From positions 124,001 to 188,000 of the forward strand of contig NZ_PYVZ01000003.1 of assembly GCF_003056405.1 (NCBI RefSeq): DNA of 64,000 bases. The letters run 5' to 3'. Position 1 is the stretch's first letter; every line of letters starts with the position of its first letter. Below, one piece after another: positions 40,148 to 44,940 of this stretch. This DNA is from Devosia indica (GTDB taxonomy: Bacteria; Pseudomonadota; Alphaproteobacteria; Rhizobiales; Devosiaceae). Under the pieces are notes generated by a model. The model was not told where the DNA came from and made no database searches. It saw only the letters and a program-made list of their open reading frames with translations. The position numbers were made by a program, and so were the translations under genes.

Positions 40148-40283
40148 CGAGTGAGCTCCTCCCAAGACGGCTCATAACATATCGGCGTCCGACGACGGGC
40201 GCTCCAATGGCAAAGCCGCCAACTGGCAAGCGTCCGATCAATGGATCGGAGCGCATGTGCAGTTGGCGGCTTGTTTGTTTTTT
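40148..40283 (+). promoter_or_regulatory. NasT-type leader with terminator before nrtA
   Basis: The region has a first stem TGAGC (40152-40156) with GCTCA (40170-40174). A second hairpin is GCGTCC (40185-40190), loop GACGAC, GGGCGC (40197-40202). The terminator has 13 perfect pairs: AAGCCGCCAACTG (40213-40225) with CAGTTGGCGGCTT (40260-40272), followed by a T-rich run to 40283. The gene start is 48 bases further. NasT binding to a leader hairpin is expected to prevent termination. Confidence 0.7.
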
Positions 40284-40330
40284 GGAGCATTCGCACGGCC
40301 GCCGGTTGTCGACACAACACGGAGACGATG

Positions 40331-41740
40331 ATGACTGCGACTACCTGCCCCACGCCGCCACGCCACCGCCTCACGCCGCTGCTTGCCGGTCTTGCCCTGG
40401 GCCTGCTGACCAGCACGGCCAGCAGCGCCGCCATGCTCGACGTCGAAAAGGACGAACTGAAATTCGGTTTTATCAAGCTCACCGACATGGCCCCGCTCGC
40501 CATTGCCTATGAGCTTGGCTATTTCGAGGATGAAGGGCTCTATGTGACGCTCGAGCCACAGGCCAATTGGAAGGTGCTGCTCGATGGCGTCATCACGGGC
40601 TCGCTCGACGGCGCCCACATGCTTGCCGGCCAGCCGCTGGCCGCCACCATCGGCTATGGCACCGAAGCCCATATCGTCACCCCCTTCTCCATGGATCTCA
40701 ATGGCAACGGCATCACCGTCTCCAATGCCGTGTGGGAGTTGATGAAGCCGCACCTGGAAATGGATGCCGAGGGCAAGCCAGTCCACCCGAATTCCGCCGC
40801 CGCGCTCAAGCCGGTGATCGAGGCGTTCGATATCGAAGGCCGCCCGTTCAATCTGGGCATGGTCTTCCCCGTTTCCACCCATAATTACGAATTGCGCTAT
40901 TGGCTGGCCGCCGGCGGCATCAGTCCGGGCTATTATTCGCCCGAGGATGTGTCGGGGCAGATTGCGGCCGACGCCTATCTCTCCGTGACCCCGCCGCCGC
41001 AAATGCCCTCAACGCTCGAAGCAGGCACCATTGACGGCTACGCGGTAGGCGAACCCTGGAACCAGGCCGCCGTGTTCAAGAAAATCGGCGTGCCGGTCAT
41101 CACCGATTACGAGATCTGGAAGAACAATCCCGAAAAGGTCTTCGGGATCACTGCCGAGTTCGCTGAAACCAATCCCAACACCACGCTGGCCATTACCAAG
41201 GCGCTGATCCGCGCCGCCAAGTGGCTTGATGAGAATGACAATGCGAACCGTGCCGAAGCCGTCGAAATCCTGTCTCGCTCCGAATATGTCGGTGCCGATG
41301 CCGAGGTTATCGCGGCCTCGATGACCGGCACGTTCGAGTTCGAAGCAGGCGACGTGCGCGAAGTGCCCGACTTCAACGTCTTCTACCGCTACTTTGCCAC
41401 CTATCCCTATTATTCGGATGCCGTCTGGTATCTGACCCAGATGCGCCGCTGGGGCCAGGTGGCCGAGGACATGCCCGATAGTTGGTATGACGAGGTCGCC
41501 AGGTCGGTCTACAAGCCAGACATCTATCTTGAGGCCGCGCGCCTGCTGGTCGAAGAAGGCCATGTGGATGAGGCCGATTTCCCCTGGGACAGCAGCGGCT
41601 ATCGTGAGCCGACCGCCGAGTTCATCGACGGTGTCACCTATGACGGCACCAAACCCAACGCCTATATCGACAGCCTGCCTATTGGGCTGAAAACCGGCGA
41701 CAGCGTCGTCGGCGCCGAAGTGGTTGCTGCCGCCAACTGA
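40331..41740 (+). CDS. nrtA: Nitrate ABC transporter substrate-binding protein
   Basis: A 469-residue periplasmic protein. I chose the ATG at 40331 ([12 protein letters not shown]), five bases after GGAGA; an ATG three bases earlier is possible. Signal peptide at about residues 14-32 ([17 protein letters not shown]). The mature domain holds the NrtA/CmpA signatures: [32 protein letters not shown] [14 protein letters not shown] and [12 protein letters not shown]. It delivers nitrate (and perhaps nitrite) to the NrtB membrane subunit. First gene of nrtA-nrtB-nrtCD, behind the sigma-54 promoter and leader. Confidence 0.92.
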
Positions 41741-41790
41741 CATGCTCGGGTGGCCGCACGCCGGCCACCCTCAGCCCTGAGGACCACAAC

Positions 41791-42864
41791 ATGACCCTTG
41801 CAAGCGAAGCCCCCGCCACGACTGGCGACCGCCGGCAGAAGCTGTTTACTGCCATCAACCGTTCTGCCGCCTGGCTCAGCGCATTGGGCCTGGGATGGCT
41901 TGTGCCGCTGCTCAAGATAGCGGCTGGCGACGACCCTCGCGAACAGATGGGCGCGTTGCGCGACAGCCTGCTCTTTCCCCTGCTCGGAATTGGCGTCTTT
42001 CTGCTTGCCTGGGCAATGCTTGCGCCGCAGGTGCAAACCTCGCTTGGCGCCATTCCCGGCCCCGCACAAGTCTGGGAACAGACCGGTGCGCTCTGGCAGG
42101 ACCATGTGGCCGAACGCGAGAAGGAAGCCGATTTTTATGTGCGCCAGGATGAGCGCAATGCCGAGCTCGTCGCCGAGGGCCGCGAGGACGATGTCAAAGT
42201 GCGCGCCTATACCGGCAAGCCGACCTATCTCGATCAGATCGTCACCTCGCTCAAAACCGTCGGCCTGGGCTTTCTGATCGCCACCATCATCGCCGTGCCA
42301 CTCGGCATTGCCTCGGGGCTCAGCAAGCCGTTCAACGGCGCGCTCAATCCGCTGGTGCAATTGTTCAAACCGGTCTCGCCTTTGGCCTGGCTCCCCATTG
42401 TCACCATGGTGGTCTCGGCGCTTTATGTGGACGCCAGCGACGCCTTTCCCAAGGCGCTGGTCATTTCGGCGGTCACCGTCACTCTTTGCTCGCTCTGGCC
42501 GACACTGATCAATACCGCGCTGGGCGTTGCGTCAATCGACAAGGATCTGGTCAATGTCGGCAAGGTGCTGCAACTCTCCACCGCAACGACCATCACCAAG
42601 CTGGTGCTGCCCTCGGCCCTGCCGCTGATCTTCACCGGGCTGCGCCTGTCGCTCGGTGTTGGCTGGATGGTGCTGATCGCCGCCGAGATGCTGGCGCAGA
42701 ATCCGGGCCTGGGGAAATTCGTCTGGGATGAATTCCAGAACGGCTCATCCTCCTCGCTGGCCCGCATCATCGTCGCCGTGCTGACCATCGGTATTATCGG
42801 CTTCCTGCTCGACCGGGTGATGTTCACCCTGCAGACCGCCTTCACCTTCTCCGGCAAGCGATAG
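41791..42864 (+). CDS. nrtB: Nitrate ABC transporter permease
   Basis: A 357-residue membrane protein, longer than usual NrtB because of about 100 residues at the N-terminus. The BPD transporter core has the EAA loop region, seen as LVNVGKVLQLSTATTITKLVLPSALPLIFTGLRLSLGVGWM in part, with PSALP and L-S-L-G-V-G-W-M typical of NrtB/SsuC/TauC. About six or seven hydrophobic segments are present. It is 50 bases after nrtA and ten before the ATPase gene. Confidence 0.88.
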   Translation: MTLASEAPATTGDRRQKLFTAINRSAAWLSALGLGWLVPLLKIAAGDDPREQMGALRDSLLFPLLGIGVFLLAWAMLAPQVQTSLGAIPGPAQVWEQTGALWQDHVAEREKEADFYVRQDERNAELVAEGREDDVKVRAYTGKPTYLDQIVTSLKTVGLGFLIATIIAVPLGIASGLSKPFNGALNPLVQLFKPVSPLAWLPIVTMVVSALYVDASDAFPKALVISAVTVTLCSLWPTLINTALGVASIDKDLVNVGKVLQLSTATTITKLVLPSALPLIFTGLRLSLGVGWMVLIAAEMLAQNPGLGKFVWDEFQNGSSSSLARIIVAVLTIGIIGFLLDRVMFTLQTAFTFSGKR

Positions 42865-42874
42865 GACCTTAACA

Positions 42875-44620: not shown

Positions 44621-44667
44621 CGGGAGGCTGCACAATAATAACGCACTTCTCGACTTCGGCCATGAAG

Positions 44668-44684
44668 TGCATGAAATTTGTGCA
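44668..44684. promoter_or_regulatory. NtrC-like binding site upstream of narK
   Basis: TGCATGAAATTTGTGCA has the same half-sites and spacing as the site before nasT, TGCAT-N7-GTGCA, which fits the NtrC consensus. It lies about 108 bases upstream of the sigma-54 promoter at 44792, a usual enhancer distance. Confidence 0.65.
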
Positions 44685-44791
44685 TGGTGATGCTCTTTGC
44701 CGCGCGGCGGTTTTCACTGCCGATGGTGCGGGCATCCGAGCCGATCAGCTTAACTGCTGAAAACACGAGACAAATCGATGCCGAGCTGGTT

Positions 44792-44807
44792 TGGCACGGT
44801 TCCTGCA
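44792..44807 (+). promoter_or_regulatory. Sigma-54 promoter of narK
   Basis: TGGCACGGTTCCTGCA has the -24 GG and -12 GC doublets at the correct spacing, and differs from the nrtA promoter at only two of sixteen positions. Predicted transcription start near 44818. Confidence 0.78.
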
Positions 44808-44817
44808 AAGAGGGGAG

Positions 44818-44940
44818 CGATAGAGCTCCTCCCAAGACGCTCTTCGAATAGTCGACGTCCAAGGTTGGGCGTTCAAAGGCAAAGTCGCCAACAGATGCGC
44901 ATCGGTTTCGGCCGGTGAGGTGTCGGTTGGCGGCTTTTTT
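44818..44940 (+). promoter_or_regulatory. NasT-type leader with terminator before narK
   Basis: First stem AGAGC (44822-44826) with GCTCT (44839-44843). Second hairpin ACGTCC (44855-44860), loop AAGGTT, GGGCGT (44867-44872); this hexaloop has A at position 1 and G at position 4, as in ANTAR targets. Terminator GTCGCCAAC (44884-44892) with GTTGGCGGC (44926-44934) and six T residues. Sequence blocks match the nrtA leader, and two stems show compensatory base changes. Confidence 0.75.

Follow-up and report, generated by a model that had tools for sequence, protein, structure and literature searches.

Probable NasT-type attenuation leaders of two nitrate operons in Devosia indica and their 5' hairpin with an anti-Shine-Dalgarno-like loop

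NasT antitermination has been described mechanistically in several publications (PMC3369931, PMC3795266, PMC5424462, PMC6759348). In these, the leaders of Paracoccus denitrificans nasA and of Bradyrhizobium diazoefficiens nosR and nirA are under NasT-NasS control and place hairpins before nitrogen-oxide genes, with premature termination of transcription and an ANTAR protein. The dual-hexaloop ANTAR antiterminators of eut, nasF and amiE (PMC3369931) have two small hairpins whose loops carry A as the first and G as the fourth base (A1/G4), and the second hairpin (P2) shares its sequence with the terminator. Here we analyse a window of 64,000 nucleotides (nt; the whole stretch of DNA studied) from Devosia indica (family Devosiaceae, order Rhizobiales, class Alphaproteobacteria), in which the regions upstream of nrtA and of a narK-type gene are very probably attenuation leaders of the NasT (ANTAR) type, belonging to nitrate operons with sigma54-type promoters. 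The switch itself is known biology, a new instance of the known NasT mechanism. Two differences set the locus apart: there are two leaders in one cluster, and each carries a further hairpin at its 5' end with a CUCCUCCC loop, for which the consulted parts of the nasA, nosR and nirA reports offer no counterpart. The GAGCTCCTCCCAAGACG block, the most conserved between the two leaders, falls within this third hairpin (P0) at the predicted 5' end of the RNA, for the most part in its loop, and we place it outside the ANTAR site and its switch.

From the predicted transcription start (+1) through P2, both RNAs fold into three hairpins, P0, P1 and P2 (z=-2.24 for nrtA and -2.40 for narK, computed folds), and in both of them an intrinsic terminator uses the 3' arm of P2 as its own 5' arm, with 10/10 pairs and a U-run. 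The terminator folds are strong (-44.6 kcal/mol, z=-7.36, for 77 nt from 40208 in the nrtA leader; -34.9 kcal/mol, z=-5.43, for 70 nt from 44877 in the narK leader), and that of nrtA was absent from the output of a simple consensus terminator scan. Termination at these sites would give computed RNAs of 136 nt (nrtA) and 128 nt (narK). Both 6-nt loops of the narK leader (AAGGTT and AAAGTC) satisfy the A1/G4 rule; in the nrtA leader the P2 loop AAAGCC conforms and the P1 loop GACGAC (40191-40196) does not, having G1/G4. An ANTAR-domain protein is encoded by the same genome (nasT, PF03861). While this anatomy is read directly from both leaders, NasT binding, nitrate response and readthrough would follow by analogy with the publications on Paracoccus, Bradyrhizobium and Enterococcus. 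With nitrate absent, NasT would be held by NasS and the 3' arm of P2 would go into the terminator, so that a short RNA is released; with nitrate present, freed NasT would bind P1 and P2, removing P2 from the terminator, and transcription would reach nrtA-nrtB-nrtCD and narK-nirB-nasC-cysG.

An earlier, sequence-only reading of the two leaders had named eight bases as compensatory stem changes, and all of them are correct (T40152/A40174 and A44822/T44843 in its first stem, G40185/C40202 and A44855/T44872 in its second). The blocks it reported as shared, GAGCTCCTCCCAAGACG and GGCAAAG(C/T)CGCCAAC, are likewise common to both leaders. It was wrong, however, in choosing the GAGCTCCTCCCAAGACG stem for the first recognition hairpin: the ANTAR pair consists of its second stem, P1, and of GGC-AAAG(C/T)C-GCC, P2, which lies within its second block. 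NasT antitermination of two separate operons, which it considered the simplest reading, is well supported by the anatomy (the nasT domains, two hairpins and the competition between P2 and the terminator) with the first stem reassigned. The two leaders resemble each other along much of their length. This likeness is not due to chance, because exact copies of the 14-mer CTCCTCCCAAGACG number just two in the 3.95-Mb genome and both lie inside these leaders. Across 397 genomes of the order there are 26 exact copies, of which 13 belong to nitrate leaders with the same promoter-hairpin context and the other 13 are unrelated.

As two sequences alone are insufficient to prove covariation, relatives were needed, and the covariance-model search of related genomes that the sequence-only reading had proposed was run with a model of P1 and P2 only, built from 13 leaders with P0 excluded. 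The model matched 96 of 136 family genomes (E≤0.5) and 129 of 397 order genomes (E≤0.1, many of these matches weak); in a class-wide search 3 of 385 genomes matched at E≤0.001, our own included, and in the two others P1 is preceded, by eye, by a promoter and then a hairpin. Within the Devosia indica genome it matched these two leaders only (E≤0.5). A subset of 135 fetched matches was studied, 103 within the family (all listed matches down to E=9.2e-4, plus one at 0.0017) and 32 outside it (from the order, listed matches down to E=0.0044, minus three, in G059, G189 and G338; weaker or unlisted ones were omitted). L100 contained a second, weak match that was not kept (L and G numbers are our handles for sequence stretches and genomes), and the training leaders came from the CTCCTCCCAAGACG 14-mer, which biases the sample towards near relatives with that loop. 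A relative of a nitrate gene was found downstream of 131/135 by tblastn (56 nrtA, 36 narK, 33 nirB, 3 nasC and 3 cysG; 26 of the 56 nrtA matches are below 50% identity and so belong to the NrtA family without surely being NrtA). Of the remaining four, L152 and L161 look false and are probably not true members of the set, and the other two are followed, by eye, by a nirC/focA-like gene. A sigma54-type element was found by regular expression before 121 of the 135.

In this sample the P2 loop has A1/G4 in 133/135 and the P1 loop in 124/135, with G1/G4 in a further eight; the alternative pairing of P2 with a terminator, followed by a U-run, is present in 131/135. Among 121 distinct P1 sequences, the loop varies at positions 3, 5 and 6 but hardly at all at positions 1 and 4, and pairs 2-19 and 3-18 covary. 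The covariation claimed for the second stem is strongly supported, the pair corresponding to 40185/40202 being GC in 78 of these sequences, AU in 28, GU in 8, UA in 3, CG in 2 and unpaired in 2.

The formate/nitrite-transporter-like (nirC/focA) genes (by eye) that follow the P1-P2 leaders L054 and L056, which come from two other genomes of this genus, are likely further NasT targets.

Several points weigh against assigning both leaders to the NasT type. Loop positions 1 and 4 are important for ANTAR proteins, and in Enterococcus faecalis eutP a mutation of the first loop base reduced induction (both from PMC3369931); the nrtA P1 loop of D. indica has G1. The same G1 occurs in six related nrtA leaders besides our own, the eighth such match, L152, being probably false. 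Computed folds add one pair inside both P1 loops (G-C and A-U), leaving loops of 4 nt, and a narK stretch started 8 nt further upstream gives a different P0 fold. The promoters are pattern matches and the transcription starts are computed, and the A1/G4 tallies are biased by a model trained on 13 leaders that already had these features. Further to that, narK-bjgb-flp of B. diazoefficiens increased in a nasT deletion despite a predicted NasT hairpin in its leader (PMC6759348), and a NasT-type leader therefore does not guarantee positive control. We regard the nrtA leader as a variant that probably functions like the rest of the family but breaks the A1 rule in its P1 loop, and NasT may read it less well.

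The Rfam family RF03032 (narK RNA) shows the same order of parts, namely a sigma54-like GGCaCA...UUGCU (by eye), a hairpin with an AACGGC loop and a ACAAAGACGU stretch. Its consensus differs in having only 16 nt between the -12-like GC and P1, as do the leaders that lack P0. A scan of the window at Rfam gathering scores gave no match, RF03032 included; with the threshold relaxed, a single sensible lead emerged, narK RNA in a relative (L102, 21.5 of 43.2 bits). A search with RF03032 in 61 genomes gave none over the cut-off, 14 control genomes being also without a match, and the best score below it (28.8 of 43.2 bits) fell on a P0-less leader, L094.

Features of the two leaders, neighbouring genes and ar14-like RNAs (window positions unless a locus is given).
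Feature	Location	Strand	Description
Sigma54-type -24/-12 element of nrtA	40121..40137	+	TTGGCACG-N4-GTGCA; predicted +1 at ~40148
P0 of nrtA leader	40152..40174	+	TGAGC / 13-nt loop TCCTCCCAAGACG / GCTCA; first stem of the sequence-only reading
P1 of nrtA leader, first ANTAR-type hairpin	40184..40203	+	GGCGTCC / GACGAC / GGGCGCT; G1 instead of the canonical A
P2 of nrtA leader, second ANTAR-type hairpin	40209..40220	+	GGC / AAAGCC / GCC (A1, G4)
Intrinsic terminator of nrtA leader	40214..40284	+	5' arm AGCCGCCAAC overlapping P2; 3' arm GTTGGCGGCT at 40262-40271; U-rich tail
Sigma54-type -24/-12 element of narK	44791..44807	+	TTGGCACG-N4-CTGCA; predicted +1 at ~44818
P0 of narK leader	44822..44843	+	AGAGC / 12-nt loop TCCTCCCAAGAC / GCTCT
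P1 of narK leader	44854..44873	+	GACGTCC / AAGGTT / GGGCGTT (A1, G4)
P2 of narK leader	44878..44889	+	GGC / AAAGTC / GCC (A1, G4)
Intrinsic terminator of narK leader	44883..44946	+	5' arm AGTCGCCAAC overlapping P2; 3' arm GTTGGCGGCT at 44926-44935; U-rich tail
nasT	38150..38749	+	Receiver and ANTAR antiterminator; ANTAR PF03861 80.3 bits (cut-off 27.3), Response_reg PF00072 39.8 bits
nasS	38763..39968	+	NMT1_2 nitrate-binding-type sensor protein; PF13379 223.8 bits
nrtA	40331..41740	+	NMT1_2 substrate-binding protein of nitrate ATP-binding cassette (ABC) transporter; heads nrtA-nrtB-nrtCD
narK-type gene	44970..46250	+	Nitrate/nitrite transporter of the major facilitator superfamily; heads narK-nirB-nasC-cysG
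ar14-like tandem RNAs	L184:1440-1640, 1785-1970 (G000:C13)		Three TCCTCCTCCC loops and a terminator each

P0 has no place in the described dual-hexaloop antiterminators, where it would be an extra element. Where a promoter was recognised (121 leaders), the spacing between the -12 element and P1 is 15-19 nt in nine leaders, too short to accommodate P0; it is 29-49 nt in 110 and exceeds this in two (for P0, these two and the 14 leaders without a recognised promoter were classed as unclear, 16/135 in all). The leaders with 29-49 nt include 68 nonredundant ones, each of which folds more stably than the mean of its own shuffles, and irrespective of loop type the first P0 pair stands 0-5 nt away from the predicted +1; individually, p≤0.05 was reached by 31/68 (25/49 with other loops and 6/19 with the CUCCUCCC-type loop). 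These other loops are mostly short, diverse and unrelated to one another, UUCG accounting for 8 of the 49 nonredundant ones and many kinds being seen once. Leaders without P0, or with unrelated loops in it, keep the P1-P2-terminator layout, and P0 is therefore not needed for the switch. We conclude that it is a common but apparently dispensable feature of leaders in the order, with which a role in protecting the 5' end or in spacing would agree.

Counted at up to 3 mismatches, a CTCCTCCCAAGACG-type loop is present in 43/103 leaders of the family and 0/32 outside it, and by downstream gene in 30/45 nrtA, 7/17 narK, 6/33 nirB, 0/6 cysG or nasC and 0/2 nirC-like leaders. All 43 have the CTCCC core and 38 the full 14-mer, while flanks and outer stem pairs vary. 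Three narK leaders outside the 43 (L105, L110 and L111) have a variant P0, GGCGCCTCCCGAGGTCGC, in which CTCCC is retained and the remaining loop lost. When named genomes were scanned for this loop with P1 after it, 21 stretches came up, three of which (L163, L165 and L182) were inspected: 16 are from Devosia, two from Pelagibacterium and one from 'Rhizobiales bacterium UBA3584', and two are chance matches with no leader context (Algimonas L165 and the metagenome-assembled Gemmatimonadaceae genome L182). Devosia subaequoris and D. marina have two such leaders each.

For the covariation that had been claimed for this stem, the leaders with 12-nt loops (24 rows) and 13-nt loops (19 rows) were counted apart over six pairs, L050 being a duplicate of L049; pair counts from a whole-leader alignment were discarded, as the two loop lengths put the right arms out of register. 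In the 13-nt type the claim finds support, none of 500 shuffles reaching the covariation score; in the 12-nt type it is weaker, with 34/500 shuffles reaching that score and 124/500 the number of paired cells. In each type one slid version of the stem scores higher (0.164 vs 0.140 and 0.225 vs 0.158 for the 13-nt and 12-nt types, respectively). The fraction of cells paired favours the true register, at 96% (13-nt) and 84% (12-nt) against at most 49% and 55% in slid versions. P0's own covariation is thus modest. A pairing of the GACG of P0 with the CGUC of P1 was also considered and is unsupported: the P0 side stays constant when P1 changes (L113 and L114, by eye), although a G-U pair would persist there.

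There is about an even chance that P0 is a 5'-terminal stabilising or spacing hairpin and nothing else, its CUCCUCCC loop being without a function itself and present only because a few leaders passed it on by descent. The stability and position of P0 with any loop speak for this, as does the likeness of our two leaders, which makes their common descent likely. Set against it is the retention of CTCCC in 43/43 and of the 14-mer in 38/43 before nrtA, narK and nirB while flanks and outer pairs change. We suggest that the nearly fixed, anti-Shine-Dalgarno (anti-SD)-like loop may have a further base-pairing role.

Such a role has a parallel in the ar14/NfeR1 family of small RNAs (sRNAs; SmelA075/SmelA099 and NfeR1), in which, according to PMC3927594 and PMC10746234, CCUCCUCCC anti-SD loops stay constant as the stems drift. 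Nitrogen stress induces NfeR1, which silences ntrBC and two transporter mRNAs (PMC10746234). The CUCCUCCC of P0 equals eight of the nine bases of CCUCCUCCC in 41 of the 43 leaders, and in our own leaders the preceding base is G, not C. In common with ar14 sRNAs (SmelA075/NfeR1, Rfam RF02344), these leaders have a hairpin loop with CUCCUCCC, variable stems and a short RNA with an intrinsic terminator; the differences are that the leaders have one such hairpin where ar14 has three, that the hairpin stands in the 5' leader of an operon, and that activity in trans is hypothetical for them. Our leaders (L001 and L002) have a single such hairpin and no Rfam match. The genome has a single RF02344 match elsewhere (G000:C13 75198-75339, 31.6 of 58.8 bits and so below the cut-off, control genomes being without a match too), which covers the second and third TCCTCCTCCC loops of the first of two tandem ar14-like RNAs, the first loop lying just upstream of it. 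All six loops (at 1472, 1520 and 1561, and at 1799, 1846 and 1885 of L184) are in or near predicted hairpins. A search for ar15 (AbcR) was uninformative, since its controls gave no match either.

It is conceivable, if unlikely, that the Devosia and Pelagibacterium leaders double as nitrate-controlled sRNAs acting in trans: under nitrogen shortage without nitrate, with both the terminator and the nitrogen-stress promoter on, an RNA of ~130 nt would be released whose P0 loop CUCCUCCCAAGAC would serve as a seed, pairing with TTGGGAGGA-type SD sequences, several of them before transporter genes; the leader would then combine an ANTAR attenuator with a loop of the ar14/NfeR1 kind. Besides the correspondence with ar14 and the presence of two tandem ar14-like RNAs in the genome, this idea draws on the computed terminated RNAs of the 43 leaders, which are 118-170 nt long (median 131) and leave the CUCCC core mostly unpaired (median probability 0.76). 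The 10-nt complement TTGGGAGGAG has nine exact places in the genome, two in the leaders (other strand) and seven others, each 1-6 nt before an ATG; five of the seven open reading frames so preceded exceed 180 amino acids (aa) in the stretch examined, and three look like parts of transporters by eye. The genes with TTGGGAGGAG include a binding-protein-like one at G000:C4:53324 (L193). ANTAR-binding sRNAs exist in Gram-positive bacteria. Attenuators in 5' untranslated regions that double as sRNAs are likewise known, for example Rli51 (PMC11394854) and the metZ riboswitch RNA (PMC9373788).

This evidence from SD placement is weak, however, because GGGAGG is a strong SD anyway and a complement so placed is to be expected: in an 864-kb sample of the genome 5/20 places of GGGAGGAG and 6/10 of TTGGGAGGA are SD-placed, against 0/2 of TTGGGAGGAG, these two being taken as the leaders' own antisense. 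The two other TTGGGAGGAG-preceded frames are short (52 and 36 aa), and the complement of the 14-mer, searched genome-wide at two mismatches, is not in excess (8 vs 11 in the control). A full-text literature search found, in the text portions it returned, no publication joining NasT/ANTAR leaders with the CCUCCUCCC motif. As a separate observation, five of the six SD-placed TTGGGAGGA copies precede genes for secreted binding-protein-like products (by eye), as if this type of SD singled out transporter mRNAs as targets of anti-SD sRNAs. A cis interaction between the P0 loop and the SD of the leaders' own genes was rejected as a candidate, at -10.8 (nrtA) and -7.8 kcal/mol (narK) vs -19.4 and -21.4 kcal/mol with two TTGGGAGGAG mRNAs; the duplex with the SD region of nasS comes to -14.6 kcal/mol.

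We consider it very improbable that P0 is a third NasT recognition hairpin with a conserved loop read by the protein. The room for P0 in 110/121 leaders and its nearly fixed loop in 43 would suit such a role, but nine leaders lack the room, the loops elsewhere are unrelated, the P0 loop is no A1/G4 hexaloop, and one genome (G154) holds both a leader with a CUCCUCCC-type P0 and one with another P0 (L050 and L101), which would count against this role if a single NasT reads both. Least probable is a reading of the conserved block as promoter-proximal DNA-binding site. Its location, roughly +5 to +25, and the GAGCTC palindrome present in many of its copies might suggest one, but in some stem pairs the bases to the left and right of the loop have both changed, and other leaders retain a hairpin here and not the sequence.

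The genes around the leaders are in the order nasT-nasS-nrtA-nrtB-nrtCD-narK-nirB-nasC-cysG, the whole cluster being on the + strand. Repeats of the TGTGCA/TGCACA type stand upstream of nrtA, narK and nasT (39980-40004, 44665-44690 and 38105-38130, by eye) and are possible NtrC sites.

Taken as NasT-type leaders, these two regions would add two operons of a Devosia-type bacterium to those under an established mechanism, and the P1-P2 model provides a usable profile of NasT leaders for the order. What is new is the 5' hairpin P0, which has no room in the Rfam narK RNA and is present in most of the promoter-recognised leaders studied, and which in one family carries the loop of a studied class of sRNAs. 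The anti-SD-like loop at the predicted 5' end of the RNA is the part worth following: if its action in trans were true, a product of aborted transcription would convey the nitrate signal to other genes.

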